A stretch of 64,000 nucleotides of DNA from Leptasterias polaris (Eukaryota; Echinodermata; Asteroidea; Forcipulatida; Asteriidae): positions 1,736,001-1,800,000 of the forward strand of contig JAZGTN010000047.1 in the NCBI GenBank assembly GCA_037783415.1, read 5' to 3'. Below the pieces are notes generated by a model that saw only the letters and a program-made list of their open reading frames with translations, had not been told where the DNA came from and made no database searches. How positions within the stretch are numbered: the first letter of the stretch is position 1; each line of letters starts with the position of its first letter. Shown here piece by piece: positions 4,130 to 55,493 of the stretch. The position numbers and the translations under genes are program-made.

Positions 4130-4441
4130 AAGTAGTTACTGTGGTATACTGAAGATTGTCTTTTTATACCAAGATGGAAATAGAAATAAATATGAGAACC
4201 AAGAAAAGAAGAACTTTGCTTCATTTTGTTTGTAAAAGACCCCATTTTCATCATCATCATCATCATCAACACCACATGCTCAGGAAGAGCGTAGCGCCTC
4301 AACAATGCAGTTTTCACTCCAGCTGGTTCTGGGCGAGTCTTTTACCAGCTGACAGATTCAGTCCCAGTGCCCTTAGGTCTTCTTTTAGCTTGCCCTTCTA
4401 TCGCAAACGGGGTGACCCCTTGGATGGGGCCAGCTGGGGGG
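4130..4441 (+). other. Conserved leader before the minisatellite
   Basis: About 300 bp, starting near GGTATACTGAAGATTG, are closely matched at 17998-18290, 38727-39030 and 47770-48068. It includes a variable CAT/CAA trinucleotide run (near 4249) that reads as poly-His in one frame. Frames run open into the array in copies A and B, but an insertion breaks it in the 38.9-kb copy and the reading frame at the array entry differs between copies. I treat it as noncoding 3' sequence. Confidence 0.6.
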
Positions 4442-7400
4442 CAGGCTCTTTCAACAGAAGAGCAGGCTCCTTCAACAGAAGAGCAGGCTCCTTCAACAGA
4501 AGAGCAGGATCCTTCAACAGAAGAGCAGGCTCCTTCAACAGAAGAGCAGGCTCCTTCAACAGAAGAGCAGGCTCCTTCAACAGAAGAGCAGGCTCCTTCC
4601 AACAGAAGAACAGGCTCCTTCAACAGAAGAACAGGCTCCTTCAACAGAAGAGCAGGCTCCTTCAACAGAAGAGCAGGCTCCTTCAACAGAAGAGCAGGCT
4701 CCTTCAACAGAAGAGCAGGATCCTTCAACAGAAGAGCAGGCTCCTTCAACAGAAGAGCAGGCTCTTTCAACAGAAGAGCAGGCTCCTTCAACAGAAGAGC
4801 AGGCTCCTTCAACAGAAGAGCAGGCTCCTTCCAACAGAAGAACAGGCTCCTTCAACAGAAGAACAGGCTCCTTCAACAGAAGAGCAGGCTCCTTCCAACA
4901 GAAGAGCAGGCTCCTTCCAACAGAAGAACAGGCTCCTTCAACAGAAGAGCAGGCTCCTTCAACAGAAGAGCAGGCTCCTTCAACAGAAGAGCAGGCTCCT
5001 TCAACAGAAGAGCAGGCTCCTTCAACAGAAGAGCAGGCTCCTTCCAACAGAAGAGCAGGCTCCTTCAACAGAAGAGCAGGCTCCTTCAACAGAAGAGCAG
5101 GCTCCTTCCAACAGAAGAACAGGCTCCTTCAACAGAAGAGCAGGCTCCTTCAACAGAAGGGCAGGCTCCTTCAACAGAAGAGCAGGCTCCTTCAACAGAA
5201 GAGCAGGCTCCTTCAACAGAAGAACAGGCTCCTTCAACAGAAGAGCAGGCTCCTTCAACAGAAGAGCAGGCTCCTTCCAACAGAAGAGCAGGCTCCTTCA
5301 ACAGAAGAACAGGCTCCTTCAACAGAAGAGCAGGCTCCTTCCAACAGAAGAGCAGGCTCCTTCAACAGAAGAACAGGCTCCTTCAACAGAAGAGCAGGCT
5401 CCTTCCAACAGAAGAGCAGGCTCCTTCAACAGAAGAACAGGCTCCTTCAACAGAAGAGCAGGCTCCTTCAACAGAAGAACAGGCTCCTTCAACAGAAGAG
5501 CAGGCTCCTTCAACAGAAGAGCAGGCTCCTTCCAACAGAAGAGCAGGCTCCTTCAACAGAAGAACAGGCTCCTTCAACAGAAGAGCAGGCTCCTTCCAAC
5601 AGAAGAGCAGGCTCCTTCAACAGAAGAACAGGCTCCTTCAACAGAAGAGCAGGCTCCTTCCAACAGAAGAGCAGGCTCCTTCAACAGAAGAACAGGCTCC
5701 TTCAACAGAAGAGCAGGCTCCTTCCAACAGAAGAGCAGGCTCCTTCAACAGAAGAACAGGCTCCTTCAACAGAAGAGCAGGCTCCTTCAACAGAAGAGCA
5801 GGCTCATTCAACAGAAGAGCAGGCTCCTTCCAACAGAAGAACAGGCTCCTTCAACAGAAGAACAGGCTCCTTCAACAGAAGAACAGGCTCCTTCAACAGA
5901 AGAGCAGGCTCCTTCCAACAGAAGAACAGGCTCCTTCAACAGAAGAGCAGGCTCCTTCAACAGAAGAGCAGGCTCCTTCAACAGAAGAGCAGGCTCCTTC
6001 AACAGAAGAACAGGCTCCTTCAACAGAAGAGCAGGCTCCTTCCAACAGAAGAGCAGGCTCCTTCAACAGAAGAACAGGCTCCTTCAACAGAAGAGCAGGC
6101 TCCTTCCAACAGAAGAGCAGGCTCCTTCAACAGAAGAACAGGCTCCTTCAACAGAAGAGCAGGCTCCTTCCAACAGAAGAGCAGGCTCCTTCAACAGAAG
6201 AACAGGCTCCTTCAACAGAAGAGCAGGCTCCTTCCAACAGAAGAGCAGGCTCCTTCAACAGAAGAACAGGCTCCTTCAACAGAAGAGCAGGCTCCTTCAA
6301 CAGAAGAGCAGGCTCATTCAACAGAAGAGCAGGCTCCTTCCAACAGAAGAACAGGCTCCTTCAACAGAAGAACAGGCTCCTTCAACAGAAGAACAGGCTC
6401 CTTCAACAGAAGAGCAGGCTCCTTCCAACAGAAGAACAGGCTCCTTCAACAGAAGAGCAGGCTCCTTCAACAGAAGAGCAGGCTCCTTCAACAGAAGAGC
6501 AGGCTCCTTCAACAGAAGAGCATGCTCCTTCAACAGAAGAGCAGGCTCCTTCCAACAGAAGAACAGGCTCCTTCCAACAGAAGAGCAGGCTCCTTCAACA
6601 GAAGAGCAGGCTCCTTCAACAGAAGAGCAGGCTCCTTCAACAGAAGAGCAGGCTCCTTCAACAGAAGAGCAGGCCCCTTCAACAGAAGAGCAGGCTCCTT
6701 CAACAGAAGAGCAGGCTCCTTCAAACAGAAGAGCAGGCTCCTTCAACAGAAGAACAGGCTCCATCAACAGAAGAGCAGGCTCCTTCAACAGAAGAGCAGG
6801 CTCCTTCCAACAGAAGAACAGGCTCCTTCAACAGAAGAGCAGGCTCCTTCAACAGAAGAGCAGGCTCCTTCAACAGAAGAGCAGGCTCCTTCAACAGAAG
6901 AGCAGGCTCCTTCAACAGAAGAGCAGGCTCCTTCAACAGAAGAACAGGCTCCTTCAACAGAAGAGCAGGCTCCTTCAACAGAAGAGCAGGCTCCTTCCAA
7001 CAGAAGAGCAGGCTCCTTCAACAGAAGAACAGGCTCCTTCAACAGAAGAGCAGGCTCCTTCCAACAGAAGAGCAGGCTCCTTCAACAGAAGAACAGGCTC
7101 CTTCAACAGAAGAGCAGGCTCCTTCCAACAGAAGAGCAGGCTCCTTCAACAGAAGAACAGGCTCCTTCAACAGAAGAGCAGGCTCCTTCCAACAGAAGAG
7201 CAGGCTCCTTCAACAGAAGAACAGGCTCCTTCAACAGAAGAGCAGGCTCCTTCCAACAGAAGAGCAGGCTCCTTCAACAGAAGAACAGGCTCCTTCAACA
7301 GAAGAGCAGGCTCCTTCAACAGAAGAACAGGCTCCTTCAACAGAAGAGCAGGCTCCTTCAACAGAAGAGCAGGCTCCTTCAACAGAAGAGCAGGCTCCTT

Positions 7401-8883
7401 CCAACAGAAGAGCAGGCTCCTTCAACAGAAGAACAGGCTCCTTCAACAGAAGAGCAGGCTCCTTCCAACAGAAGAGCAGGCTCCTTCAACAGAAGAACAG
7501 GCTCCTTCAACAGAAGAGCAGGCTCCTTCCAACAGAAGAGCAGGCTCCTTCAACAGAAGAACAGGCTCCTTCAACAGAAGAGCAGGCTCCTTCAACAGAA
7601 GAGCAGGCTCCTTCAACAGAAGAGCAGGCTCCTTCAACAGAAGAACAGGCTCCTTCAACAGAAGAGCAGGCTCCTTCAACAGAAGAGCAGGCTCATTCAA
7701 CAGAAGAGCAGGCTCCTTCCAACAGAAGAACAGGCTCCTTCAACAGAAGAACAGGCTCCTTCAACAGAAGAACAGGCTCCTTCAACAGAAGAGCAGGCTC
7801 CTTCCAACAGAAGAACAGGCTCCTTCAACAGAAGAGCAGGCTCCTTCAACAGAAGAGCAGGCTCCTTCAACAGAAGAGCAGGCTCCTTCAACAGAAGAGC
7901 AGGCTCCTTCAACAGAAGAGCATGCTCCTTCAACAGAAGAGCAGGCTCCTTCAAACAGAAGAGCAGGCTCCTTCAACAGAAGAACAGGCTCCATCAACAG
8001 AAGAGCAGGCTCCTTCAACAGAAGAGCAGGCTCCTTCCAACAGAAGAACAGGCTCCTTCAACAGAAGAGCAGGCTCCTTCAACAGAAGAGCAGGCTCCTT
8101 CAACAGAAGAGCAGGCTCCTTCAACAGAAGAGCAGGCTCCTTCAACAGAAGAGCAGGCTCCTTCAACAGAAGAGCAGGCCCCTTCAACAGAAGAGCAGGC
8201 TCCTTCAACAGAAGAGCAGGCTCCTTCAAACAGAAGAGCAGGCTCCTTCAACAGAAGAACAGGCTCCATCAACAGAAGAGCAGGCTCCTTCAACAGAAGA
8301 GCAGGCTCCTTCAACAGAAGAGCAGGCTCCTTCCAACAGAAGAACAGGCTCCTTCAACAGAAGAGCAGGCTCCTTCAACAGAAGAGCAGGCTCCTTCAAC
8401 AGAAGAGCAGGCTCCTTCAACAGAAGAGCAGGCTCCTTCAACAGAAGAGCAGGCTCCTTCAACAGAAGAACAGGCTCCTTCAACAGAAGAGCAGGCTCCT
8501 TCAACAGAAGAGCAGGCTCCTTCCAACAGAAGAGCAGGCTCCTTCAACAGAAGAACAGGCTCCTTCAACAGAAGAGCAGGCTCCTTCCAACAGAAGAGCA
8601 GGCTCCTTCAACAGAAGAACAGGCTCCTTCAACAGAAGAGCAGGCTCCTTCCAACAGAAGAGCAGGCTCCTTCAACAGAAGAACAGGCTCCTTCAACAGA
8701 AGAGCAGGCTCCTTCCAACAGAAGAGCAGGCTCCTTCAACAGAAGAACAGGCTCCTTCAACAGAAGAGCAGGCTCCTTCAACAGAAGAGCAGGCTCCTTC
8801 AACAGAAGAGCAGGCTCCTTCAACAGAAGAGCAGGCTCCTTCCAACAGAAGAGCAGGCTCCTTCCAACAGAAGAGCAGGCTCC
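4442..8883. repeat. 21/22-bp minisatellite, about 208 units
   Basis: Tandem CAGGCTCCTTCAACAGAAGAG units of 21 bp, mixed with a 22-bp form that has TTCCAACAG. Positions vary between GAGCAGG and GAACAGG. Much of the array is a 22+21+21 = 64-bp higher-order repeat, clearly seen near 5280-5720, 6030-6250 and 7000-7270. The 21-bp unit has no stop in any of the three plus frames, so three long overlapping open frames cross the whole array and 22-mers only rotate between them. Smaller versions sit at the homologous places near 18.3, 39.0 and 48.1 kb. Confidence 0.97.
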
Positions 8884-8922
8884 CCTGTTTTTATGATGGA
8901 TCTGAACTGAGATTGGATGGGA

Positions 8923-13985: not shown

Positions 13986-14160
13986 GGGGAGAGATAATCC
14001 GTACATTTGTGTGTGACCATTTGTGCGTGACTGATCGATTTGTTTGTGATACTTGTGGATACTCAACTATCACTAATTTGAAAGAATTTTAAATTGGCAT
14101 GAGTAAATCAACGCTGGAGATAGATCATTTTGTTTGGGATACTTGTGGATACTAAACTTT
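13986..14160 (+). pseudogene. Decayed finger sequence before PLE fragment
   Basis: GTTTGTGATACTTGTGGATAC (CDTCGY) and GGCATGAGTAAATC recur, matching sequence before the other PLE copies (20830-20960, 43640-43784). It ends in ACTAAACTTT at 14151-14160, the left copy of the PLE 10-bp target duplication. Confidence 0.6.
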
Positions 14161-14369
14161 TGATGCTATATTGATGACATCTTTTTCATCTGGACTAGTG
14201 ATGAAGCAAGCCGCATAGCATTCATTAACCACATTAAGTCCTTACACAGGACCATCAATTTCACAAATGAATTCTCGACCAAGGAAACCCACTTTCTGGA
14301 TGTCAAGGTTATAAAGACAAAGGATGGCTTAACCACAGATCTCTTTGTCAAACCCACAGATAAACAGAC
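14161..14369 (+). pseudogene. PLE reverse-transcriptase fragment (copy A)
   Basis: Opens with YIDDIFFIWTS, the YxDD catalytic box of a reverse transcriptase, followed by a THFLDVKV segment and FVKPTDK, the order found in PLE palm and thumb regions. It is cut at both ends: the 5' truncation is the same as in the copies at 26428 and 43785, and at 14369 it jumps straight into finger sequence. The remaining PLE has been deleted here. Confidence 0.8.
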
Positions 14370-20957: not shown

Positions 20958-21124
20958 ACTAAACTTTTGATGCTATATTGTATGGGGCGCCGTTTGTCAA
21001 TTAATTGTTTAGCGTATTTTTGACGTGTTTTTACCATGGTTTGTAATAATTAGATGTAAACCATAGAAAGTGCTGTCAATTTATTTTGTGGTTTACATAC
21101 CATAAATTTACAATCAAAGCTTAT

Positions 21125-22545
21125 AAATTATGGTTTATAAACCATGAAAATTGAATCATCATAAAACATGGTTTATAAACCATGGTTTATAAACCATGAA
21201 AATTGAAGCGTCATAAAACATGGTTTATAAACCATGAAAATTTAAGCACCTTCAAAACATGGTTTATAAACCATAAAAATTTAAGCATAATAAAACATGG
21301 TTTACAAATCATGGTTTATAAACCATGAAAATTTAAGCACCTTCAAAACATGGTTTATAAACCATAACAATTTAAGCATCAAAACATGGTTTACAAATCA
21401 TGGTTTATAAACCATGAAAATTTAAGCATCTTCAAAACATGGTTTATAAACCATAAAAATGTAAACATGGTTTACAAATCATGATTCATGGTTTATAAAC
21501 CATGAAAATTTAGGCATCCTCAAAACATGGTTTATAAATCATGGTTTATAAACCATGAAAAGTGAAGCATCATAAAACATGGTTTATAAACCATGAAAAT
21601 CGTGTGTTCACAAATCATGGTTTATAAACCATAAAAACGTGTCACAAATCATGGTTTATAAACCATGAAAATCGTGTGTTCACAAATCATGGTTTATAAA
21701 CCATGAAAATCGTGCGTCACAAATCATGGTTTATAAACCATAAAAATCGTGTGTCACAAATCATGGTTTATAAACCATGAAAATCGTGTGTTCACAAATC
21801 ATGGTTTATAAACCATGAAAATCGTGTGTCACAAATCATGGTTTATAAACCATGAAAATCGTGTGTTCACAAATCATGGTTTATAAACCATGAAAATCGT
21901 GCGTCACAAATCATGGTTTATAAACCATAAAAATCGTGTGTCACAAATCATGGTTTATAAACCATGAAAATCGTGTGTTCACAAATCATGGTTTATAAAC
22001 CATGAAAATCGTGTTTCACAAATCATGGTTTATAAACCATGAAAATCGTGTGTTCACAAATCATGGTTTATAAACCATGAAAAGTGAAGCATCACTAAAA
22101 CATGGTTTATAAACCATGAAAATCGTGTGTTCACAAATCATGATTCACAAATCATGGTTTATAAACCATAAAAACGTGTGTCACAAATCATGGTTTATAA
22201 ACCATGAAAATCGTGTGTCACAAATCATGGTTTATAAACCATAAAAATCGTGTGTCACAAATCATGGTTTATAAACCATGAAAATCGTGTGTTCACAAAT
22301 CATGGTTTATAAACCATGAAAATCGTGCGTCACAAATCATGGTTTATAAACCATAAAAATCGTGTGTCACAAATCATGGTTTATAAACCATGAAAATCGT
22401 GTGTTCACAAATCATGGTTTATAAACCATGAAAATCGTGTGTCACAAATCATGGTTTATAAACCATGAAAATCGTGTGTTCACAAATCATGGTTAATAAA
22501 CCATGAAAATCGTGTGTCACAAATCATGGTTTATAAACCATAAAA
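21125..22545. repeat. Left-arm array of the ATGGTTTATAAACCAT palindrome
   Basis: Roughly 35-40 units of 37-38 bp. Each has the perfect palindrome ATGGTTTATAAACCAT plus a spacer. The outer third uses GAAAATTTAAGCATC-type spacers, the inner part GAAAATCGTGTGTCACAAATC-type. Alternating units end CATGAAAA or CATAAAAA. Confidence 0.95.
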
Positions 22546-22576
22546 AAATGTGTCCGAATTAACGGCTACAGCTACG

Positions 22577-23322
22577 TGTGTCTAGGGGAAAAGCGAATCA
22601 AACGTGTAACCTTGTGCAAACAGACTATAAGATGAGACTAGTGTGACCACAAAGAACATTTTGATGGTTTTGTATATATATAAGCATCATTATAGAGTGT
22701 TTTTTAAGAGGACAAGCACAAAAAATATAATAATACCGGGACGCACTCACAGTGTACAAAAAGCTTTAGTTATAGTATTTATAAAATTCTTCCCTTGTTA
22801 ACGGAGAAACAAGTAAGGAAATTAAAGCTTTAAAGAACGTATGAGGCGATATGTGGATAGTTCTTAATAGGGAAGGGGAGGGGGTGGAAATGTTTTGGTT
22901 AAGGGAAAAAGGCAAAATTAAATGGGGAACAGGTGTTGGTGGGGGTGGGGTTTGGATAAGATGGAGGGTGTGAAAAGGAAACTGCCAAAAGACACATTGA
23001 ACCGAGATGCACCAAGGAGCGGGAAATTCGAAACTGAATCAGGTGCTAGAAGATAGATTGGCAGCGAGAGGGAGTGAAGGGAACACATGTTGTCTGTGTG
23101 GTCTCTGGTAGTAAATCATCCCTGACTGTCTAAATGTTGTTATGGGGTGGGAGACAAGTGTCTCTGTATGCAGATACTCAGGCAATGGTTACAACAGAGC
23201 TAATGTTGATGTTTTTATGAAACTTCATGAAGGATTGAGGGGGAGTGGGTTTTGGAAAGGGGGGGGGGTTTTGGTTTTCAGGGGAAGGGGTTGTTGGAAT
23301 TCACTAAAAGGAACTTTTATCC
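22577..23322. other. Core of giant element, left part
   Basis: No coding signal. AT-rich at first, then G-rich (GGGAAGGGGAGGGGGTGG near 22870; runs near 22935 and 23240-23290). On the minus strand it lies just downstream of the hammerhead and may be further PLE terminal sequence. Confidence 0.4.
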
Positions 23323-23418
23323 GGTGATAATATGTTGAGCCACTTTTTTTATTCCTTTAATGGAATAGCTCAAAACATATTTTCAGTGCGTTATATAAGC
23401 TGCACCTCATCAGTCACC
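23323..23418 (-). ncRNA. Hammerhead ribozyme (type I) of a PLE
   Basis: Read on the minus strand: GGTGA (stem I), CTGATGA core, GGTGC / GCACT (stem II, 12-nt loop), GAAA core, then stem III: AATATGTT pairs with AACATATT and GAGC with GCTC (TT bulge), capped by an inner TATTCC/GGAATA hairpin. Next come the UUA cleavage triplet and TCACC closing stem I. All invariant positions (CUGANGA, GAAA, U16.1, H17) are present. The only oddity is G-U instead of G-C at the base of stem II. Hammerheads are known in PLE terminal repeats, and a PLE linker fragment lies on the same strand upstream at 24428-24165. It would self-cleave just before stem I's 3' strand, at about 23327/23328. Confidence 0.8.
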
Positions 23419-23535
23419 ATTCTGGCTTATGTATCCTTTATTATGAAAGATTTGCAACAAGGAGTGATCAAAATGTAGCTTGTTAGAGTAGAAGGATCCA
23501 GCGAGATTAGTATTTTTCGTTTGTTTTTAGTTAAA

Positions 23536-24063
23536 TATGGTGTTCCATATGTGCCACTCCTTCCGTCGCCTTTTCAATTTTTTCCGTCGCCTTTTCAATG
23601 TTGTCCGGTGGCCTTTTCAATTTTTCAGGCGCATTTTTTTTCTGAAACGGCCACGTGACTGTCACATGATGACCATGTGATGATTTGTTGGCAAAGAAAA
23701 ATGATTGGATACCTCAACCATACTGTCTATGTACAGGCTTTGCTTAGTAAATCAAGAATGAAACTGAAAAAGGATATTATCGTAGTTATCTGGTCTCGCG
23801 ACTGGATGAAGCAACGTATACATTTTGGCAACTGCGGTATGCCTCCCAAAGGTCGAATTTCCTTCGGAGTCATGTGATAGTCACCTGGTAGTCACGTGGA
23901 CCCACGATGGAAAAATTGAAAAGGCGACGGACAAAATTGAAAAGGCGACGGACAAAATTGAAAAGGCGACGGACAAAATTGAAAAGGCGACGGACAAAAT
24001 TGAAAAGGCGACGGACAAAATTGAAAAGGCGACGGAAAGGAGTGGCACATATGGAACACCATA
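23536..24063. mobile_element. 528-bp MITE with internal 21-bp repeats
   Basis: Inverted ends TATGGTGTTCCATATGTGCC and GGCACATATGGAACACCATA, flanked by GTTAAA on both sides (23530-23535, 24064-24069). Both arms hold CCGTCGCCTTTTCAATTTT-type units: three in the left arm, and inverted in the right arm expanded to six. It is inserted in the PLE remnant between linker and hammerhead. Confidence 0.85.
23912..24037. repeat. Six 21-bp tandem units in the MITE arm
   Basis: AAAATTGAAAAGGCGACGGAC repeated six times. Translated on plus it gives KIEKATD repeats in a 79-codon frame that has no other sign of being a gene. Confidence 0.9.
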
Positions 24064-24164
24064 GTTAAACGTAATCTCGTCTGGATCCAAACCCTGTTGT
24101 TTCTTTAATTTATTGTACCAAACTGTTGTTCTTGGAGTAATTTAACCAGGATTTGCAAGTTCTG

Positions 24165-24428
24165 TTAGTCCATTTCTTTGAGTATGTTTTCTTCGGTTGA
24201 ATCTTGCAATCTAGCTCGAATTATTTGGTCTTTTATGTTCTTTTGTCTTTTGTAGGCCAACAGAGGTGGTACAGGGAAGAGTTTGTTAAGGAGATCACTG
24301 TCATTTATTAAGTGCCAGTGTTTAAACAGTGCACGTTTGAGATTAGAGTGGTGTATTTGTGGGAAGAAAGGCAAGATAAAAACAAGGGGCGGATTCGTTT
24401 CCTTCTTGATGTTAAGGACCCGGTGCAA
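24165..24428 (-). pseudogene. PLE linker-region fragment, minus strand
   Basis: Minus-strand frame with PLVFILPFFPQIHHSNLKR, HWHLINDSDLLNKLFPVPP and LAYKRQKNIKDQIIRARL. This is the stretch between reverse transcriptase and the GIY-YIG domain in PLEs; the plus-strand PLE near 44250-44420 shows the same order (VTFHPSHPHIRNQF, IVAYQRPLSLRDLIVRAE). The sequences are clearly different, so this is a second PLE lineage. No endonuclease was found downstream, so it is internally deleted before the MITE and hammerhead. Confidence 0.75.
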
Positions 24429-24805
24429 CTACGGCTGCCACGGCTGCCGATGGAACTATGGCTGCCGTTGCCGGAAAATGACTTGCCGTGTGATCTACGA
24501 CAAGTAAAGTACTTCGGAGGGCCTCTACTACAGCAGTAACAACTAGCCTTTCCACGTTCGTTGTTGCTTCGGCCATTGTCACATCACATTTAATTGTTCC
24601 CCCGGGCCCGCAATGGGCGCAAACAAACTCCGACTTGTCTCTAAGATTGTTAAGAAGAGTCGTCTAGGAACCAGACTACTTCGTGATTGGTTTCCTCGAG
24701 CCTCTGCCGGCATGCCGCATGGCACGCGGTGCATTACATCATTGCTAGCTCGCATGGGGAACCGATCAGAATTGGGAAGGAGGTTTCAATGAGACGATGT
24801 GAGCC
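24429..24805. other. Core of giant element, right part
   Basis: Contains short GGCTGCC(A/G)(C/A/T)GG repeats near 24430-24480 and unrecognised sequence with some short open frames. No gene called. Confidence 0.35.
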
Positions 24806-24936
24806 GTATCCGAATTGGCGGCTACAGCTACAGCTACGGCTGTTGCTAAGGATTTTGCTAAGGATGTCCTATACTTCAACGCATGATGACGCAGAAATCT
24901 AGCCGTAGCCGTAGCTGTAGCCGTTAATTCGGACAC
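24806..24936. mobile_element. 131-bp MITE with GTGTCCGAATT ends
   Basis: GTATCCGAATTGGCGGCTAC on the left and GTAGCCGTTAATTCGGACAC on the right are inverted, with CTACAGCTACGGCT-like arms. A partial copy of the same end (GTGTCCGAATTAACGGCTAC) sits at the inner edge of the left arm (about 22551), so the boundary of the core is itself part of the large inverted repeat. Confidence 0.7.
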
Positions 24937-24944
24937 GGTTTTTT

Positions 24945-26285
24945 ATGGTTTATAAACCATGATTTGTGACACACGTTTTTTATGGTTTATAAACCATGAT
25001 TTGTGAACACACGATTTTCATGGTTTATAAACCATGATTTGTGACACACGATTTTTATGGTTTATAAACCATGATTTGTGACACACGATTTTCATGGTTT
25101 ATAAACCATGATTTGTGACACACGATTTTTATGGTTTATAAACCATGATTTGTGACACACGTTTTTTATGGTTTATAAACCATGATTTGTGAACACACGA
25201 TTTTCATGGTTTATAAACCATGATTTGTGAACACACGATTTTCATGGTTTATAAACCATGATTTGTGACACACGATTTTTATGGTTTATAAACCATGATT
25301 TGTGACACACGATTTTCATGGTTTATAAACCATGATTTGTGAGCACACGATTTTCATGGTTTAAAAACCATGATTTGTGACACACGATTTTCATGGTTTA
25401 TAAACCATGATTTGTGACACACGATTGTTATGGTTTATAAACCATGATTTGTGAACACACGATTTTCATGGTTTATAAACCATTTTTTGTGACACACGAT
25501 TTTTATGGTTTATAAACGTAAACCATGATTTGTGACACACGATTTTTATGGTTTATAAACCATGATTTGTGACACACGATTTTTATGGTTTATAAACCAT
25601 GATTTGTGAACACACGATTTTCATGGTTTATAAACCATGATTTGTGACACACGATTTTTATGGTTTATAAACCATGATTTGTGACACACGATTTTTATGG
25701 TTTATAAACCATGATTTGTGACACACGTTTTTATGGTTTATAAACCATGATTTGTGAACACACGATTTTCATGGTTTATAAACCATGTTTTATGATGCTT
25801 CAATTTTCATGGTTTATAAACCATGATTTATAAACCATGTTTTGAGGATGCCTAAATTTTCATGGTTTATAAACCATGAATCATGATTTGTAAACCATGT
25901 TTACATTTTTATGGTTTATAAACCATGTTTTGAAGATGCTTAAATTTTCATGGTTTATAAACCATGATTTGTAAACCATGTTTTGATGCTTAAATTGTTA
26001 TGGTTTATAAACCATGTTTTGAAGATGCTTAAATTTTCATGGTTTATAAACCATGTTTTGAAGGTGCTTAAATTTTCATGGTTTATAAACCATGATTTGT
26101 AAACCATGTTTTATTATGCTTAAATTGTTATGGTTTATAAACCATGTTTTGAAGACCGGTGCTTAAATTTTCATGGTTTGTAAACCATGTTTTATGACGC
26201 TTCAATTTTCATGGTTTATAAACCATGGTTTATAAACCATGTTTTATGATGATTCAATTTTCATGGTTTATAAACCATAATTTAT
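24945..26285. repeat. Right-arm array of the ATGGTTTATAAACCAT palindrome
   Basis: Inverted counterpart of the left array, in the same order of spacer types (CGTGTGTC-like near the core, TTTAAGC-like outside). Unit order is similar but not identical; variants such as GTTTAAAAACC (25361) and an inserted CGTAAACC (25517) are unique to this arm. Confidence 0.95.
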
Positions 26286-26427
26286 AAGCTTTGATTGTAA
26301 ATTTATGGTATGTAAACCACAAAATAAATTGACAGCACTTTCTATGGTTTACATCTAATTATTACAAACCATGGTAAAAACACGTCAAAAATACGCTAAA
26401 CAATTAATTGACAAACGGCGCCCCATA

Positions 26428-27154
26428 ATATTGATGACATCTTTTTCATTTGGACTAGTGATGAAGCAAGCCTCATAGCATTCAATAACCACATTCCTTT
26501 CACAGGACCATCAATTTCACGATTGAATTCTCGACCAAGGAAACCCACTTTCTGGATGTCAAGGTTATAAAGACAGATGATGGCTTAACGACAGATCTCT
26601 TTGTCAAACCCACAAATAAACATCAATACCTCCACTCAACCAGCTGTTACCCCCAACACTGCAAAAGCATAGCCTACAGTCAGGCCCTCAGACTCTGTCG
26701 AATCTGTTCTAATGATTCTGATTTTGTCCACCACTCACAGGAACTTAAGAAACACCTTGTTTCCAGGGGTCATAGCTCCCTAGCAGTAGCAGTAGCAGTC
26801 CATCGAGTGATTCAGAAAGTCAAGGCTTGTTCTAGGGAGTCTGTACTCTCCAAAGGACCCAAGCAACGTTGAAAGTTCCTTTTGTTGTTACTTTTCACAT
26901 CCTCACATTCGTAACCAGTTCTATATTCTTCATATTCTTCACACATCAGAACGGCTTCAACGTGCTGTACAGGAAAAACCCATAATTGCCTACCAACGCC
27001 CACTCAGTCTCAGGGATCTCATCGTCCCCCCCCCCATTAAGGATGATGTTAATCCCCCTTTGCTTCAGGGTACTTTGAGGTTTTCCAACACATCTAAATG
27101 CATCAGTTGTAGACAAAACATCAGGGATTCAGACTCCTTTACCAGCCATACTGG
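26428..27154 (+). pseudogene. PLE reverse transcriptase C-terminus and linker (copy B)
   Basis: YIDDIFFIWTS after the insertion, then a THFLDVKV segment, FVKPTNKHQYLHSTSCYP, HCKSIAYSQALRLCRICSN and SSLAVAVAVHRVIQKVK. A frame change follows near 26872 to VPFVVTF.., then AYQRPLSLRDLIV and CISCRQNIRDSDSFTSHTG. PLE RT thumb and CxxC-containing linker are recognisable, but at least two frame changes and a CCCCCCCCC tract at 27027 make it inactive. Confidence 0.8.
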
Positions 27155-27158
27155 TTAA

Positions 27159-27422
27159 GCCTGGGCGACTAGTGAAATTCACTACTTGACTAGTTGCGCC
27201 TCAAATAGTCGCAACAATGACACTAGTCGCGACTAATAACTCCCATGATGCATTGCGGTTTATTGTTTGCTGCAGGCGCAATATAGTAAAATTCATTTTT
27301 GTAGTAGTCGCGACTATTTTTGTAGTAGTCGTGGCGGCGCAATTAATCGAGTAGTTGAAAAACGGTAGTCGCGACTAGACTAATTAATCAATAGTCGCGA
27401 CTTCGACAGTAGTCGCCCAGGC
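27159..27422. mobile_element. 264-bp TTAA-flanked MITE (copy B)
   Basis: Inverted ends GCCTGGGCGACTA / TAGTCGCCCAGGC between TTAA duplications (27155-27158, 27423-27426). The interior is rich in the palindrome TAGTCGCGACTA and its variants. TTAA targets are typical of piggyBac-type elements, so a piggyBac-like MITE is likely; no transposase. A nearly identical copy sits at the homologous place 44550. Confidence 0.8.
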
Positions 27423-27486
27423 TTAATACTGGTGGTACCACCCATAAGACAAGGGATTAGGTCACCTGCACCACCACTAATCTAAT

Positions 27487-27768
27487 CTATCTTATATCTT
27501 TCAGAGTTTGTAGTGTTCAATATATAGGTGAAACAAGAACTACACTCAAGAGGCCTTTCTACGGCCACATATCCCAATCAACACCCAAAAGCTGGATACA
27601 CCTGTAGGACACCACTTCAACCACTCCATTTTTGACATGAATTTACAGGGCATTGAGGCACTAGGTAACTGCAGAGAGACTGTTCGTCTGAGTAGGGAGA
27701 AACTATGGATAAGGCGCATTAAGACCACTCAGCCCCATGGTTTGAATATCCAAGAAGGAAATGACTAA
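27487..27768 (+). pseudogene. PLE GIY-YIG endonuclease fragment (copy B)
   Basis: IYLISFRVCSVQYIGETRT, a KRPFYGHISQ segment, a shift, then TPVGHHFNHSIFDMNLQGIE, ALGNCRETVRLSREKLWIRR and GLNIQEGND before the stop. The GIY-YIG core and the downstream Arg/Glu region are recognisable. One frameshift lies after the SWIHL region. Confidence 0.8.
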
Positions 27769-28503: not shown

Positions 28504-31500
28504 ATGAATTCTCAAGAGAAGACGTTACTTTGTGACTTAAGTGGAGCAACCTACTCAAACAAAGGCAACCTGGAAAAACAGCAAGAACCGGACACTTCAA
28601 AGTCACTGACAATTCATCGGAGCGTCAACGCTGGAGAAAAACTGTTTGTTTGTGACCTTTGTGGGAAAATCTACTCATGTAAACAGTCACTGAAATACCA
28701 TCAGAAGCTCCATACCGGAGAGAAACCGTTTGTGACATTTGTGGTAAAGCCTTTTTACAAAAAAGCCATTTAAGTACTCACCAGAGAATCCACACTGGAG
28801 AGAAACCATTTGTTTGTGACCTTTGTGGAAAAGCATTTTCTCAAAAAGACACTTTAAGTACTCACCAGAGAATCCACACTGGAGAGAAACCATTTGTTTG
28901 TGACCTTTGTGGAAAAGCCTTTTCGCGTAAACATCACCTGGAAACCCATCTGCGGTTCCATAGCGGAGAGAAAGAGTTTGTTTGTGACATTTGTGGTAAA
29001 GCCTTTTTACAAAAACAACACCTTACCACTCATCAGCGTGTCCACACTGGAGAAAAACCATTTGTTTGTGCTGTTTGTGAAAAAGCATTTTCTCAAAAAG
29101 ACACTTTAATTACTCACCAGAGAATCCACACTGGAGAGAAACCATTTGTTTGCGACCTTTGTGGAAAAGCCTTTTCGTGTAAACAGTTACTGAAAAACCA
29201 TCAGAAGCTCCATACCGGAGAGAAACCGTTTGTTTGTGACCTTTGTGGAAAAGCCTTTGCGCGTAAACATCGCCTGGCAAACCATAGGCGTTTCCACACA
29301 GGAGAGAAACCATTCTTTGTGACATTTGTGGGAAAATGTACTCAGGTAAACAGTCACTGAAATACCATCAGAAGTTCCATACCGAAGAGAAACTGTTTGT
29401 TTGTGACCTTTGTGGTAAAGCTTTTTTACAAAAACATTACCTTACGACTCACCAGCTTGTCCACACTGGAGAAAACCCATTTGTTTGTGACCTTTGTGGG
29501 AAAATCTACTCATGTAAACAGTCACTGAAATACCATCAGAAGCTCCATACCGGAGAGAAACCGTTTGTTTGTGACATTTGTGGTAAAGCCTTTTTACAAA
29601 GACTTATCCTTACCAATCATCAGCGTGTCCACACTGGAGAAAAACCATTTGTTTGTGACGTTTGTGAAAAAGCATTCTCTCAAAAAAGCCATTTAAGTAC
29701 TCACCAGAGAATCCACACTGGAGAGAAACCATTTGTTTGTGACATTTGTGGAAAAGCCTTTCTGCGTACCAATAACCTGTTAACGCATAAGCGTATCCAC
29801 ACTGGAGAGAAACCATTTGTCTGTGATATTTGTGGAAAAGCTTTCTCACATAAAGGTACACTGACAGCCCATCAGCGTGTCCACACTGGAGAGAAACCAT
29901 ATGTCTGCGATGTTTGTGGGAAAGCCTTTTCGCGTAAACATCACCTGGAAAACCATCTGCGGTCCCATACCAGAGAGAAACCATTTGTTTGTGACATTTG
30001 TGGTAAAGCCTTTTTACACAAATGTAAACTTACCACTCATCAGCGTGTCCACACTGGAGTGAAACCATTTGTTTGTGACATTTGTGGAAAAGGCTTCATA
30101 AAAAAACAGCAGCATGAAAACCATCAGCGTGTCCACACTGGAGTGAAACCATTTGTTTGTGACATTTGTGGGAAAGCATTTTCAGAAGAACAGTCTCTGA
30201 CTGGCCATAACTGTGTCGACTACAACACTGGAGAAAACACCTTTGTTTGTGACATTTGTGGTAAAGCCTTTTCAGGCAAATGTAAACTTACCACTCATCA
30301 GCAAGTCCACACTGGAGAGAAACAATTTGCTTGTGACATTTGTGGAAAAGCCTTTCTGCGTACCAATAACCTGTTAACGCATAAGCGTATCCACACTGGA
30401 GAGAAACCATTTGTCTGTGATATTTGTGGAAAAGCTTTCTCACATAAAGGTACACTGACAGCCCATCAGCGTGTCCACACTGGAGAGAAACCATTTGTCT
30501 GCGATGTTTGTGGGAAAGCCTTTTCGCGTAAACATCACCTGGAAAACCATCTGCGGTCCCATACCGGAGAGAAACCATTTGTTTGTGACATTTGTGGTAA
30601 AGCCTTTTTACACAAATGTAAACTTACCACTCATCAGCGTGTCCACACTGGAGTGAAACCATTTGTTTGTGACATTTGTGGAAAAGGCTTCATAAAAAAA
30701 CAGCAGCATGAAAACCATCAGCGTGTCCACACTGGAGTGAAACCATTTGTTTGTGACATTTGTGGGAAAGCATTTTCAGAAGAACAGTCTCTGACTGGCC
30801 ATAACTGTGTCGACTACAACACTGGAGAAAACACATTTGTTTGTGACATTTGTGGTAAAGCCTTTTCAGGCAAATGTAAACTTACCACTCATCAGCAAGT
30901 CCACACTGGAGAGAAACAATTTGATGGTGACATTTGTGGAAAAGCCTTTCTGCGTACCAATAACCTGTTAACGCATAAGCGTATCCACACTGGAGAGAAA
31001 CCATTTGTCTGTGATATTTGTGGAAAAGCTTTCTCACATAAAGGTACACTGACAGCCCATCAGCGTGTCCACACTAGAGAGAAACCATCTGTTTGTGATA
31101 TTTGTGGAAAAGCTTTTTCACACAAATGTACACTGACAGCCCATCAGCATATCCACACTGGAGAGAAACCATTTGTTTGTGACATTTGCGGGAAAGCATT
31201 TTCTCGTAAACACAACCTTATCAGCCACCAGTTAACCCACACGGGAGAGAAACCATATACTTGTGACTATTGTGGGAAAGCGTTTGTTTTTAAAAGCAAC
31301 CTTGTCAGCCACCACCGAATCCATACTGGAGAGAAACCATATGTCTGCGATGTTTGTGGGAAAGCCTTTTCGCGTAAACATCACCTGGAAAACCATCTGC
31401 GGTCCCATACCGGAGAGAAACCATTTGTTTGTGACATTTGTGGTAGAGCCTTTTTACACAAATGTAAACTTACCAACCATCAGCGTGTCCACACTGGAGA

Positions 31501-32535
31501 GAAACAATTTGCTTGTGACATTTGTGGAAAAGCCTTTCTGCGTACCAATAACCTGTTAACGCATAAGCGTATCCACACTGGAGAGAAACCATTTGTTTGT
31601 GATATTTGTGGAAAAGCTTTCTCACATAAAGGTACACTGACAGCCCATCAGCGTGTCCACACTGGAGAGAAACCATTTGTCTGCGATGTTTGTGGGAAAG
31701 CCTTTTCGCGTAAACATCACCTGGAAAACCATCTGCGGTCCCATACCGGAGAGAAACCATTTGTTTGTGACATTTGTGGTAAAGCCTTTTTACACAAATG
31801 TAAACTTACCACTCATCAGCGTGTCCACACTGGAGTGAAGTGAAACCATTTGTTTGTGACATTTGTGGAAAAGGCTTCATAAAAAAACAGCAGCATGAAA
31901 ACCATCAGCGTGTCCACACTGGAGTGAAACCATTTGTTTGTGACATTTGTGGGAAAGCATTTTCAGAAGAACAGTCTCTGACTGGCCATAACTGTGTCGA
32001 CTACAACACTGGAGAAAACACATTTGTTTGTGACATTTGTGGTAAAGCCTTTTCAGGCAAATGTAAACTTACCACTCATCAGCAAGTCCACACTGGAGAG
32101 AAACAATTTGATGGTGACATTTGTGGAAAAGCCTTACTGCGTACCAATAACCTGTTAACGCATAAGCGTATCCACACTGGAGAGAAACCATTTGTTTGTG
32201 ATATTTGTGGAAAAGCTTTCTCACATAAAGGTACACTGACAGCCCATCAGCGTGTCCACACTGGAGAGAAACCATTTGTTTGTGACATTTGCGGGAAAGC
32301 ATTTTCTCGTAAACACAACCTTATCAGCCACCAGTTAACCCACACGGGAGAGAAACCATTTACTTGTGACTATTGTGGGAAAGCGTTTGTTTTTAAAAGC
32401 AACCTTGTCAGCCACCGCCGAATCCATACTGCAGAGAAACCATATGTCTGCGATGTTTGTGGGAAAGCCTTTACACAAAAACAAGGCTTGACCAAACATC
32501 AGCGTGTCCACACTAAAGAGAAACCTTTTGTTTAA
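28504..32535 (+). pseudogene. Frameshifted C2H2 exon ZNF-C, about 45 fingers
   Basis: Begins MNSQEKTLLCDL behind an acceptor at 28501. Three indels break the frame: a 4-base loss near 28731 (AAACCGTTTGTGACATT), a 1-base loss near 29313 (CCATTCTTTGTGAC) and a 5-base duplication at 31836 (GGAGTGAAGTGAAACC) that creates a stop. Between them are 7, then 29, then 8 finger units; the longest open stretch is 29336-31843. Degenerate units recur: SEEQSLTGHNCVDYN lacks the second His, and QFDGDIC has Gly for the first Cys. The end ([19 protein letters not shown]) matches the ends of ZNF-A and -B. If no intron or editing removes the shifts, no full-length protein can be made. A partial 29-finger product remains conceivable if another start is used. 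Confidence 0.8.
29742..32115 (+). repeat. 594-bp unit (seven fingers) present three times in ZNF-C
   Basis: The block starting GACATTTGTGGAAAAGCCTTTCTGCG occurs at 29742 and 30336 exactly 594 bp apart. It then starts a partial copy at 30930, and recurs at 31517-32115 (599 bp because of the 5-base duplication). Finger order in each: RTNNLLTHKRIH, HKGTLTAHQRVH, RKHHLENHLRSH, HKCKLTTHQRVH, KKQQHENHQRVH, the degenerate unit, GKCKLTTHQQVH. This is recent growth by in-frame duplication of whole fingers. Confidence 0.9.
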
Positions 32536-43345: not shown

Positions 43346-44549
43346 TTTATCATTAAATTTATAAAATCTGAAATACTGACAGTGACAAGTAAGTAAAGTA
43401 GTGTCACTGTCGGTCCTACAAAAAGCCGACAACACGCCGACAACAAGTCCAGGGCCGACAACACGCCGACAACAAGTTTCAAATACCTCAAAAACAGCAA
43501 ATAAACCAAGGATTTATTAGAAATATGTGTACTAAATATTAACAAAAATGCAATTGCATAAAAATTCAGACTTCTCCTGAAGTTTATGCCCATTGCATTA
43601 GCTAGCAGTCCATCAGATCATTTGTGTGTGACCATTTTGTTGTTGTGTGTGACCGATCGATTTGTTTGTGATACTTGTGTGGATACTAAACTATCACTAA
43701 TTTGAAAGAGTTTCAAATTGGCATGAGTAAATCAACGCTGGAGATAGATCATTTTGTTTGTGATACTTGTGGATACTAAACTTTTGATGCTATATTGATG
43801 ACATCTTTTTCATCTGGACTAGTGATGAAGCAAGCCTCATAAAGTCATAGCATTCAATAACCACATTCCTTTCACAGGACCATCAATTTCACGATTGAAT
43901 TCTCGACCAAGGAAACCCACTTTCTGGATGTCAAGGTAATATAAAGACAGATGATGGCTTAACGACAGATCTCTTTGTCAAACCCACAAATAAACATCAA
44001 TACCTCCACTCAACCAGCTGTCACCCCCAACACTGCAAAAGCATAGCCTACAGTCAGGCCCTCAGACTCTGTCGAATCTGTTCTAATGATTCTGATTTTG
44101 TCCACCACTCACAGGAACTTAAGAAACACCTTGTTTCCAGGGGTCACAGCTCCCTAGCAGTAGCAGTAGCAGTCCATCGAGTGATTCAGAAAGTCAAGGC
44201 TCGTTCTAGGGAGTCTGTACTCTCCAAAGGACCCAAGCAACGTTGAAAGTTCCTTTTGTTGTTACTTTTCACCCCTCACATCCTCACATTCGTAACCAGT
44301 TCTATATTCTTCATATTCTTCACACATCAGATCGGCTTCAACGTGCTGTACAGGAAAAACCCATAGTTGCCTACCAACGCCCACTCAGTCTCAGGGATCT
44401 CATCGTCCGGGCAGAAGGCCCCCCCCATTAAGGATGATGTTAATCCCCCTTTGCCTCAGGGTACTTTGAGGTTTTCCAACACATCTAAATGCATCAGTTG
44501 TAGACAAAACATCAGGGATTCAGACTCCTTTACCAGCCATACTGGTTAA

Positions 44550-44813
44550 GCCTGGGCGACTAGTGAAATTCACTACTTGACTAGTTGCGCCTCAAATAGT
44601 CGCAACAATGACACTAGTCGCGACTAATAACTCCCATGATGCATTGCGGTTTATTGTTTGCTGCAGGCGCAATATAGTAAAATTCATTTTTGTAGTAGTC
44701 GCGACTATTTTTGTAGTAGTCGTGGCAGCGCAATTAATCGAGTAGTTGAAAAACGGTAGTCGCGACTAGACTAATTAATCAATAGTCGCGACTTCGACAG
44801 TAGTCGCCCAGGC
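44550..44813. mobile_element. 264-bp TTAA-flanked MITE (copy C)
   Basis: Same ends, TTAA duplication (44546-44549, 44814-44817) and length as 27159-27422, with very few differences (GGCAGCG versus GGCGGCG). Its presence in both PLE copies shows it was there before the segment was duplicated. Confidence 0.8.
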
Positions 44814-44879
44814 TTAATACTGGTGGTACCACCCATAAGACAAGGGATTAGGTCACCTGCACCACCACTAATCTAATCT

Positions 44880-45170
44880 ATCTTATATCTTTCAGAGTTT
44901 GTAGTGTTCAATATATAGGTGAAACAAGAACTACACTCAAGAGGCCTTTCTACGGCCACATATCCCAATCAACACCCAAAAGCTGGATACACCTGTAGGA
45001 CACCTGTAGGACACCACTTCAACCACTCCATTTTTTACATGAATTTACAGGGCATTGAGGCACTAGGTAACTGCAGAGAGACTGTTCGTCTGAGTAGGGA
45101 GAAACTATGGATAAGGCGCATTAAGACCACTGAGCCCCATGGTTTGAATATCCAAGAAGGAAATGACTAA
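44880..45170 (+). pseudogene. PLE GIY-YIG endonuclease fragment (copy C)
   Basis: IYLISFRVCSVQYIGETRT then HSRGLSTATYPNQ in a shifted frame, and the C-terminal part from TPVGHHFNHSIFYMN to GLNIQEGND before the stop. A short duplication (GGACACCTGTAGGACACC) at 44998 distinguishes it. Confidence 0.8.
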
Positions 45171-50712: not shown

Positions 50713-50819
50713 GATTTCCCTGCAAAACACTCCACCCCCATACAGACCAAAAGATTCATTTGTGGAAATGTCTTCGCCTTATTAACTCGCCTAATTGAGG
50801 ACATACACAACTAAGAACA

Positions 50820-52832
50820 ATGGAGATGGTGGACAACTTAGAAAGTGACATCTTACTAGAAAGCATGCAAAGGCGTCGACTGTTTGTGAACTTAGGAACC
50901 AAATTGACTGTTTCTGACCTTTGTAGAAGAACCTGTGGAGAAATAAATCCGACAAACCATCAGATTCAGGGCGTTAACACAAGGAAGAAATCTGTTGACT
51001 GTGATGTTTGTGGAAAAGCCTTCCCATTTAAATCTGCACTGACAGTCCATGAACGTGTCCACACTGGAGAGAAACCATTTAACTGTGACTTTTGTGGAAA
51101 ATCATTCTCGTTAAAATCTAACTTGACAGGCCATAAGCGTATCCACACTGGAGAAAACCCATTTAACTGTGACATTTGTGGAATATCGTTCTCGTTTGAA
51201 CATAACTTGACACGCCATCAGCGTATCCACACTGGAGAGAAACCATATGTTTGTGATCTTTGTGGAAAATGCTTCTCACTAATGGGTGGCCTGACATGCC
51301 ATCAACGTGTCCACACTGGAGAGAAACCATTTGTTTGTGACATTTGTAGCAAAGCCTTCCAATTTAAATCTGCACTGACAGTCCATGAACGTGTTCACAC
51401 TGGAGAGAAACCTTTTGACTGTGACATTTGTGGAAAAGCCTTCTCTATAAAATCTAGGCTGACAGGCCATAAGCGTATCCACACTGGAGAGAAACCATTT
51501 AACTGTGACTTTTGTGGAAAAGCCTTCTCTATAAAATCTAGGCTGACATGCCATAAGCGTATCCACACTGGAGAGAAACCATTTAACTGTGACTTTTGTG
51601 GAAAAACTTTCTCAATTAAAAGTTCCTTGACAAGTCATCAGCGTATCCACACTGGAGAGAAACCATATGTTTGTAATCTTTGTGGAAAAACTTTCTCAAT
51701 TAAAAGTTCCTTGACATGCCATCAGCGTATCCACACTGGAGAGAAACCCTTTGTTTGTGACATTTGTAGCAAAGCCTTCCCGTCTAAATCTGCACTGACA
51801 GTCCATGAACGTATCCACACTGGAGAGAAACCTTTTGACTGTGACATTTGTGGAAAAGCCTTCTCTATAAAATCTAGGCTGACGGGCCATAAGCGTATCC
51901 ACACTGGAGAAAAACCATTTAACTGTGACTTTTGTGGAAAATCATTCTTGTTAGAATATAACTTGACACGCCATCAGCGTGTCCACACTGGAGAGAAACC
52001 ATTTGTTTGTGATTTTTGTGGAAAAACCTTCTCAAATAAAGGTACATTGACACGCCATCAGCGTGTCCACACTGGAGAGAAACCATATGTTTGTGATTTT
52101 TGTGGAAAATCCTTTTCACAACAAATTGGCTTGACATGCCATCAGCGTATCCACACTGGAGAGAAACCATTTGTTTGTGACATTTGTAGCAAAGCCTTCC
52201 TGCTTAAATCTGCACTGACAGTCCATGAACGTATCCACACTGGAGAGAAACCTTTTGACTGTGACATTTGTGGAAAAGCCTTCGCTGTAAAATTTAGGCT
52301 GACAGGCCATATGCATATCCACACTGGAGAGAAACCATTTAACTGTGACATTTGTGGAAAATCATTCTTGTTATTATTTAACTTGACACGCCATCAGCGT
52401 ATCCACACTGGAGAGAAACCATTTGTTTGTGATCTTTGTGGAAAAACCTTCTCAATTAAAAGTACCTTGACATGTCATCAACGTGTCCACACTGGAGAAA
52501 AACCATTTGTTTGTGATTTTTGTGGAAAAACCTTCTCACATAAAGGTGCATTGACACGCCATCAACGTGTCCACACTGGAGAGAAACCATATGTTTGTGA
52601 TTTTTGTGGAAAATCCTTTTCACAACAAATTGGCTTGACACACCATCAGCGTATCCACACTGGAGAGAAACCATTTGTTTGTGACATTTGTGGAAAAGCC
52701 TTCTCTATAAAATTTAGGCTGACAGACCATATGCATATCCACACTGGAGAGAAACCATTTAACTGTGACATTTGTGGAAAATCATTCTCTATCAAATTTA
52801 GGCTGACACGCCATCAGCGTATCCACACTTGA
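50820..52832 (+). CDS. C2H2 zinc-finger protein ZNF-E1, 22 fingers
   Basis: A 670-residue protein. [20 protein letters not shown] opens a 60-residue N-terminus with acidic and basic patches but no recognised effector domain; CRRTC near residue 35-39 is too short for a finger. Fingers run from residue 61 to the end at a strict 28-residue period, all 22 with C-x2-C and H-x3-H intact and TGEKP linkers (one TGENP). Helix positions vary ([39 protein letters not shown]), with repeating blocks that suggest growth by duplicating groups of fingers. It differs in finger consensus and N-terminus from the MNSQ family, so it is a separate subfamily. The stop arises from TGA in place of the linker GGA. It probably acts in the nucleus as a DNA-binding regulator; target unknown. 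Confidence 0.9.
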
Positions 52833-53960: not shown

Positions 53961-55493
53961 AGGCATATGTTTTGGTAATTACTCTTAAATTGTAATAAAA
54001 ACGTATTGGTTAGAAGCCTACAGCAGGTTTCTATATTTAAAACCATTTTAGAACCTGAAATTTGAATCTGAGACGTTTGTCAGATTGTGTAGTCCTATTT
54101 AGGATTATTCTTCCTTCCTTGGCATACATGTACACTGATGAGAGCGCGAGGGAAGTTTGAAGGGGAAACATACCTAAAGTTGGTTTTTGGAACCAATGAT
54201 TCCAATGTTTTTATTCTGTATAAATGTAGATAATATACCGTACATTAAAACTAACCTGTGAAAAATTTACTTCAAAATGAAGTCGCGTTTTTTTGATATC
54301 ACTGATAATCCGGAGGAAGGGAAATGATCAATTCTAATAAATAGAGTCCTCATTTGAGTGAGGGAAAAAAAGTCTCTAACCTCACATTAAAATTGGGTAA
54401 ACCACTGTTGTATTTGATACCCTTCCAGTGCAAAATTTGAAAACATCTTCATCATTCTGAGAAAAATGGGTCTGTAAATTTTTGTATGGGGAAGTTTTGG
54501 TTCATATCTGACTTTCAATAACATTTCATCAAAAACAGCTTTGAATTTGACACTTTGACTTGACAACCAAAAATAATGTACAGCTTTTTTTTCAGAATAA
54601 TGTTATCAGATATTCTGGGTGTGGACAGATTTTGCTCCAAAAGGGTATTGAATACAATGACAATTTACACCATTTCAACGTGAGGTTCTTTTAAAGGAAA
54701 ATCCCAAACTTTTCTTTCAAACCATTGCGAGCTTGGGTATGGAGGATGAACATAGACAAGACTACAGCTCTGTTATTTTTGCTCAATTTTGAGCGCTAAC
54801 ATTAAATCGCCAATAGTAAAGAAGAGGGGTATGAATGCAGTCAACTTTAAACTTTACACTCTCAGCTAAAATGATGTTTACATGTTTCATTGTTGTTAAA
54901 GGTTTTTTTGACCATTTTGCGCCAATTTTATACCAATGTGTGTCTGCAATAATCGCCACTTTGGGATTTGAATTCCACTAATAATTAGGGTAAGTGTCTA
55001 AATGCCATATCACCTACAATACCCACTACACTGTACACACGGCACATTATGACTCCCAAAATGACTCCCTAGATTTTTGAACTGGGTCAGTATGTCAGAT
55101 TCTGTTCATGGTTTCTGGATAAAAGTGACATTCCTGGGTAGCAACAATATTTTGTTTTAATTTGTTTTTTTATTGAGTTACATAAGGGTAGATGGAAATA
55201 AAAAAGTAGTGAGAATTAAGAAAATGTTTGGATTTTTGTTTTTATGGATGGTTCAGCAGGGTAAACTAGTCTGGTCCCTGTTTGTGTTTATAGAATCGGC
55301 ATTCATCAATCATTGATATAACATAGGGAACCTGACACAAAGCATTTAACATGTTTAAAGGGTGCCTTTTGAGATGTCAAGTGCTACAAGATGACATTTA
55401 GATAGAAAAACCACTCAAATTTGCACAAACAAACAAAACAGAGGGATGAGGTGTTGTCCCCACTCACACAGCCCCGCCCATCCCCTTTAAGAC
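53961..55493. other. Intergenic sequence, no gene recognised
   Basis: AT-rich with no long frames, no tandem repeats and no clear transposon ends. The same sequence is present at 61947-63479. Confidence 0.6.

Follow-up and report, generated by a model that had tools for sequence, protein, structure and literature searches.

How does a hammerhead ribozyme motif come to lie between the arms of a long palindrome, and from which mobile element does it derive? We addressed this question in a window of 64 kb (locus G000:C47:1736001-1800000, the whole stretch of DNA that was analysed) from a genome of 629.7 Mb. Very probably, the motif is a true hammerhead ribozyme (HHR) of type I that stems from a Penelope-like element (PLE), a 5'-truncated copy of which was inserted once in a long-TIR transposon and then multiplied, the HHR being a passenger there.

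A hammerhead core on the minus strand

All of the core parts that the initial annotation had listed for the minus strand of 23323-23418 are present when the sequence is read directly, in the order CUGANGA ... GAAA ... NUH of a type I HHR. As an observation, the hammerhead motif is confirmed to be real. Its parts are the following:

23323..23418, minus strand: type I HHR, 96 nt (sequence, MFE fold, covariation across PLE families)
23414..23418, minus strand: stem I, 5' strand GGUGA (sequence and MFE fold)
23407..23413, minus strand: conserved core CUGAUGA (sequence and MFE fold)
23385..23406, minus strand: stem II GGUGC/GCACU with a 12-nt loop and G.U at its base (MFE fold, alignment)
23382..23384, minus strand: core GAA, G12 A13 A14 (sequence and MFE fold)
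23329..23381, minus strand: extended helix III, two 7-bp segments separated by a UU bulge, then an internal loop and an apical hairpin (MFE fold)
23323..23327, minus strand: stem I, 3' strand UCACC (sequence and MFE fold)

The 12-nt loop of stem II reads AGCUUAUAUAAC. The stem III strands, AAUAUGUU...AACAUAUU, form 8 bp in an uninterrupted register, and in that register the 8-bp stem III of the initial annotation holds, together with its inner hairpin around UUCC-AUUAAA-GGAA; the MFE fold has an alternative register of 7 bp, a UU bulge and a further 7 bp. A17 precedes UCACC, and cleavage would be expected between this base (23328) and 23327. We take the core positions used here and below (G8, U4, A17) to follow standard hammerhead numbering. 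At the base of stem II, where textbook hammerheads have G-C, the window HHR has a G.U pair, which had rightly been singled out as unusual, and 3 of 12 aligned copies have A.A. No tertiary contact between loop I and loop II was identified in the window HHR.

The MFE fold of the 96 nt is a hammerhead with three stems, stem I being open at its ends (-24.0 kcal/mol), and with 111 nt (23315-23425) it is still a hammerhead (-25.5 kcal/mol). With 141 nt (23300-23440), a competing non-hammerhead fold has the MFE (-31.2 kcal/mol). Model R1, which was built partly from the window sequence itself, scores the window HHR at 115.8 bits. Two weak R1 matches (16 bits) at 22475-22570 and 24958-25050 lie in or beside the palindrome repeats and were set aside.

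The Penelope-like source family

The HHR lies downstream of a remnant of PLE coding sequence:

22577..24414, minus strand: 5'-truncated PLE copy (RT C-terminus/linker, HHR, 3' tail)
24165..24414, minus strand: degraded coding remnant of the PLE RT C-terminus/linker, interrupted by TAG and TAA

The labels "Penelope-like" and "linker" follow from relatives whose RT and, in more distant ones, GIY-YIG domains fit PLEs, and from sequence motifs. A linker-like PLE fragment upstream on the minus strand had been noted, and it is confirmed by a six-frame match at 24165-24437, which shares 91% identity with a free PLE copy. The proposed link between the hammerhead and PLEs was found as well: in free PLE copies the motif lies just downstream of the RT ORF, about 150-210 bp 3' of its stop codon, and this ORF is intact in two of them, L026 and L029. 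To judge by these sequences, the HHR has its seat in a PLE with RT. Among the 20 loci that were fetched, nine are without transposon ends, and seven of these nine have RT sequence directly upstream of the piece. The RT ORF of L026 has 707 aa and ends about 155 bp before the HHR; its sole Pfam match is RVT_1, at 28.4 bits against a curated cut-off of 29.6. Two PLE copies in C206 are spaced 5685 bp apart (150 of 511 candidates scored). L029 (6301 bp) begins near the end of one RT and stops shortly after the end of the next. It contains a single HHR, a 3' tail that is duplicated, an ORF of 231 aa with no Pfam match and an RT ORF of 706 aa.

A protein search with the RT gave 151 relatives, and among the best 120 of these the first 46 are without the GIY-YIG family PF01541, which several later ones have. 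For a quick tree of 76 rows, 80 of the 120 listed relatives were picked by hand and those below 450 residues dropped, leaving 75. The RT falls in a group of 34 rows (SH-aLRT 100), the members of which end 0-76 residues past the aligned region, three of the rows being cut short. Outside this group, 35 of 42 rows continue for 133-262 residues and seven are short (0-27). The source PLE family has no GIY-YIG endonuclease. A comparison of the RT with PDB sequences gave nothing useful.

By description, the family resembles the endonuclease-lacking two-ORF PLEs and Terminons, which according to PMC6431247 also lack GIY-YIG and have a second ORF upstream and an HHR downstream of the RT. The same paper gives such two-ORF PLEs a length of 4-6 kb, to be compared with the 5685-bp unit of the window family. 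Terminons are marked by telomeric repeats beside the 3' HHR and by a place at chromosome ends; such repeats were not seen by eye beside the window-family HHR, neither after it nor at the 3' junctions inspected. In the PAc element the HHR overlaps the ORF start, whereas the window-family HHR follows the RT ORF; PAc with a mutated HHR remained able to insert in vitro, and its HHR was cleaved only with protein present (PMC11167929). In 18 of 21 loci the PLE piece has the 3' end CCCCTACACACA, from which L009, L011 and the window deviate slightly; this end may be comparable with the internal AC-rich start site reported for PAc (PMC11167929).

How would the ribozyme serve a PLE? Placed between RT and 3' tail, it could cut transcripts of multimeric arrays after UUA into unit-length RNAs of 5685 nt.

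A DNA transposon that carries the truncated copy

The PLE piece lies inside another mobile element and itself contains one:

20981..26427: long-TIR (foldback-like) DNA transposon, 5447 bp, carrying the PLE piece
20981..22434, plus strand: left inverted arm, built of tandem units (about 37-38 bp each) that contain ATGGTTTATAAACCAT
24940..26427, minus strand: right inverted arm
20975..20980, plus strand: target-site duplication ATATTG, left
26428..26433, plus strand: target-site duplication ATATTG, right
23536..24061: MITE-like inverted-repeat element of 526 bp, a secondary insertion within the PLE piece, flanked by the 8-bp duplication TAGTTAAA

The "giant palindrome" of the initial annotation stands as far as the inverted arms are concerned, which are about 1.5 kb long and belong to a transposon, but the palindrome is not perfect, the arms being 92.6% alike over 1511 aligned columns. 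The transposon ends read TATGGGGCGCC...GGCGCCCCATA, and the uninterrupted target site occurs twice more in the window, at 43780-43805 and 14156-14181. Inverted ends, target-site duplication and empty site are all those of a long-TIR DNA transposon. Foldback-like or long-TIR DNA transposons have long inverted arms of tandem subrepeats and make a target-site duplication. The 5447-bp element shares the tandem-subrepeat arms and the duplication with them, and differs in that its duplication is 6 bp long and its ends are of the TATGGGGCGCC type.

The target of the transposon is another stretch, at 26428-27500, which by its motifs is a putative PLE-like RT fragment, apparently of a different family. 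A transposon-free version of it lies at 43792-44891 and, in part, at 14168-14366.

Transposon ends were found at 12 of 21 loci (the window and 11 of the 20 fetched), both ends in nine of them and one end only in L015, L020 and L023. The PLE 3' junction is identical in all 12, and the 5' junction in 11, the 5' anchor of L018 not having been found. From these shared junctions in many transposon copies we infer one insertion, followed by multiplication. By eye, eight of the nine two-ended copies (window, L010, L013, L016, L017, L018, L019 and L021) have perfect 6-bp duplications, all different; the ninth, L024, is without a perfect one. That the hammerhead had been carried into a non-PLE transposon was thus borne out at the level of DNA sequence; it was also multiplied there, and the interpretation of a PLE hammerhead carried by another transposon is supported.

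A search of the genome with the 96-nt DNA found 145 candidates. The 40 that were scored have identities of 96-100%, and copy numbers of the HHR are lower bounds. These 40 copies were all looked at: the window, the 20 loci (9.9 kb each) and 19 shorter pieces, each about 617 bases long. Classed by hand from junction letters, 17 are assigned to palindromes, 12 by their visible ends and 5 by inference; 16 have RT sequence upstream, and seven were left unclassed (L009, L025, L042, L047, L048, L050 and L058). Palindrome sequence is directly upstream of the HHR in L040 and L043-L045 and, by coordinates, about 1.4 kb upstream in L041.

Three palindromes (L073-L075) have the arms and the core sequence and no PLE match, and eleven more matches of this shortened type are among those listed (40 of 2335 candidates scored). 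Since PLE-free palindromes exist, the PLE piece was probably added to a pre-existing transposon. The 526-bp element, which has GTCGCCTTTTCAATT-type repeats near its ends, entered the window PLE piece later than the PLE insertion. In a second, short palindrome form (L030 and L031) each arm bears a C-terminal piece of the PLE that stops short of the HHR, and model R1 found no HHR in either locus. Many inverted pairs of this C-terminal fragment, about 1.1 kb apart, were also seen.

In the simplest view, the HHR would be a passenger in the DNA transposon, and a minus-strand transcript of the latter, if ever made, would cut itself at 23328/23327. Titles and abstract beginnings on hammerhead ribozymes with DNA transposons or terminal inverted repeats contained no report of an HHR carried by a DNA transposon.

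Conservation of the core among copies

In 39 of the 40 copies the core is intact, as are the stem III closing and the stem I 3' strand; in the fortieth, L024, G8 is changed to U. Copies that are more diverged fare less well: in the 12-row alignment A3 a core base is changed in four rows: at G8 in L024a and L034, at U4 in L033 and at A17 in L032. This alignment replaced A1, which had misplaced or shifted rows (including L024b and L032), and A2 (including L023). When the free copy L012 was compared with L026, L033, L034, L037, L032 and L024b, identity was 89.7-96.9% in the HHR and 71.2-83.3% in the flanks, gap columns and 12 upstream sites of L024b (6 of them identical) being left out. The HHR was conserved above its flanks in all six comparisons (Fisher one-sided p from 3.4e-3 to 2.5e-6). 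Within the extended-helix family, 96.4% of cells pair, a value reached in 1 of 500 shuffles. Covariation in this family was not above that of shuffles, one pair being changed on both sides (matched by 214 of 500). Among the six moderately diverged pieces L032-L037, an HHR match is present in four and absent from L035 and L036.

L024 contains a second, diverged HHR copy (L024:7879-7975), in which homology begins at stem I and the sequence upstream is unrelated; it is perhaps a non-autonomous or truncated relative. The two related copies of L024 lie 2.9 kb apart, and neither matches the HHR descriptor.

Retention of the core in 39 of 40 copies, together with the conservation of the HHR above its flanks among diverged copies, argues against the reading that the window HHR descends from a PLE hammerhead but has lost its catalysis, a fossil passenger without self-cleavage. 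The carried copies also look young, the 127-bp transposon ends being mostly 99-100% identical among them. We regard such a fossil as the less likely case, even though the G.U pair at the base of stem II, the lack of an identified tertiary contact, the competing 141-nt fold and the degraded PLE coding part would all fit it, as would the loss of G8 in the carried copy L024, the core changes in three diverged copies and a lizard PLE HHR that showed no cleavage in the absence of its protein (PMC11167929).

It is very improbable that the DNA transposon recruited the HHR for use, for example in trimming read-through transcripts or making circular RNA. Of the 12 carried copies whose transposon ends were seen, 11 have an intact core, as recruitment would have it, but these copies are about 97-100% identical to the window HHR and too alike to show selection. 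PLE-free palindromes moreover exist (the three seen and the eleven further matches of the shortened type), and the other palindrome variant carries its PLE pieces without an HHR in both arms. The HHR as a passenger, brought in with a truncated PLE, is the reading that we retain.

Helix III in related elements

Cervera and de la Pena reportedly described minimal type I hammerheads of PLEs in 2014. The minimal PLE hammerheads and the window family share the CUGANGA...GAA core, the type I layout and a PLE as carrier, and differ in helix III, which in the window family has about 14 bp and a hairpin. PLE HHRs are described as minimal, without helix III and tertiary contacts, in PMC6155905 and PMC7761336; an extended helix III in PLE or Terminon HHRs may already be in print elsewhere in this literature.

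Matches with 32-50% identity to the RT C-terminus gave 16 diverged PLE 3' regions. Ten of them have a minimal HHR-like motif at the same place as the extended HHR, and by stem II and helix III these ten fall into four kinds (L038, L064, L039 and L063) and their near-copies. Stem I of the minimal HHRs is GCAA/UUGC, and stem II is GGAAG/CUUCC or, with a mismatch at the base, AUGCC/GGCAG and UUGCC/GGCAU. Helix III, AGCUAGCU or AACAUGUU, consists of 2 bp and a palindromic tetraloop, against about 14 bp and a hairpin in the window, where the HHR is thus not of the minimal-helix form. Among the remaining regions, L067 and L068 have a mismatch in stem I, L069 is incomplete at its end, and L072 belongs to the extended family but has decayed; L060 and L070 are the two of the 16 in which no HHR motif was found. 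A weak R1 match in L039 coincides with its minimal HHR.

Five extended and four minimal HHRs, from several PLE families, were aligned manually by their core motif. In these nine rows, which have no shuffle control, the core is kept, and for 8 of 12 pairs standard pairs occur in which both partners differ. Repeats or near-repeats (L059, L061, L062, L065, L066 and L071) were left out of the nine rows, as were L060, L070, L069, L072, L067 and L068, the extended-family L032 and L034, and near-identical copies.

Minimal PLE HHRs are said by Lunse et al. (2017) to function as dimers. For the four minimal rows the single-molecule MFE fold is not the full hammerhead, which fits this published view. 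Minimal HHRs with a palindromic helix III of 2 bp would call for dimers, and the long helix III would let the extended HHR fold as a monomer. Because the minimal form is usual in PLEs, we infer that helix III grew rather than shrank. Going further, it is possible, though we hold it with some doubt, that a PLE lineage grew helix III and so turned a dimer-dependent minimal HHR into a monomeric one, and that the active ribozyme was then captured and spread by a DNA transposon, which would make a new class of mobile element with a ribozyme. Within one genome, related PLEs have either a minimal HHR or one with an expanded helix III at the corresponding position, and the expanded one has also been naturally transplanted into a DNA transposon. 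Helix III length can therefore be tested as a switch between dimer and monomer cleavage, and the transplant makes it testable whether a ribozyme core is retained after a move from retro- to DNA-transposition.

A type I HHR with a stable helix III also resembles the HHRs of metazoan retrozymes (PMC7229834), among them those of invertebrates (PMC7229834 and PMC7761336). An origin from a non-autonomous retrozyme, with short tandem repeats that bear HHRs, rather than from a PLE is nevertheless highly improbable and already contradicted: the window-family HHR is in PLE context, downstream of the PLE RT ORF, and the 20 loci of 9.9 kb have at most one descriptor match each (one in 19 and none in L024), not the short tandem HHR repeats of a retrozyme.

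Chance expectation and the Rfam search

The full HHR descriptor matches once in the whole 64-kb window. In first-order Markov sequence with the dinucleotide make-up of the window (5.67 Gb, both strands scanned) it matched twice, each time with a stem III of 4 bp, compared with 8 in the window. From these two matches, about 2e-5 are expected by chance per window at the loosest setting. Without the stem III requirement, the descriptor also matches at window positions 54135 and 62121, which belong to a stretch present twice by duplication; neither is matched by the full descriptor.

The Rfam covariance-model check that had been set in advance was negative. Scans of the window and of the HHR interval with Rfam 15 gave no hammerhead at the gathering threshold or at E<=10. 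Six related pieces (four with minimal and two with extended HHRs) gave no hammerhead match either, and because this control was equally unmatched we do not take the negative as a defining failure of the motif. It points to a gap in Rfam release 15, which leaves the window interval and all six related HHR pieces unmatched. A hammerhead likeness by chance, in favour of which the missing Rfam match could be cited, can be practically dismissed, being already contradicted by the Markov simulation, the copies in the genome and the minimal HHRs with compensated stems that related PLEs have at this position.

Other features of the window

At 4153-8910 a frame of 1585 aa is open in 21-bp repeats, where three plus-strand frames are open; its one weak Pfam match is below the cut-off. 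Large C2H2 zinc-finger ORFs (Pfam) lie at 29288-31843 and 50799-52832. Repeats with a period of 84 bp are also found near 2.7 and 15.5 kb, and similar sequence near 46 kb. ORFs of equal length recur 7986 bp apart (50799-52832/58785-60818, 53675/61661 and 55494/63480), which suggests a recent tandem duplication.
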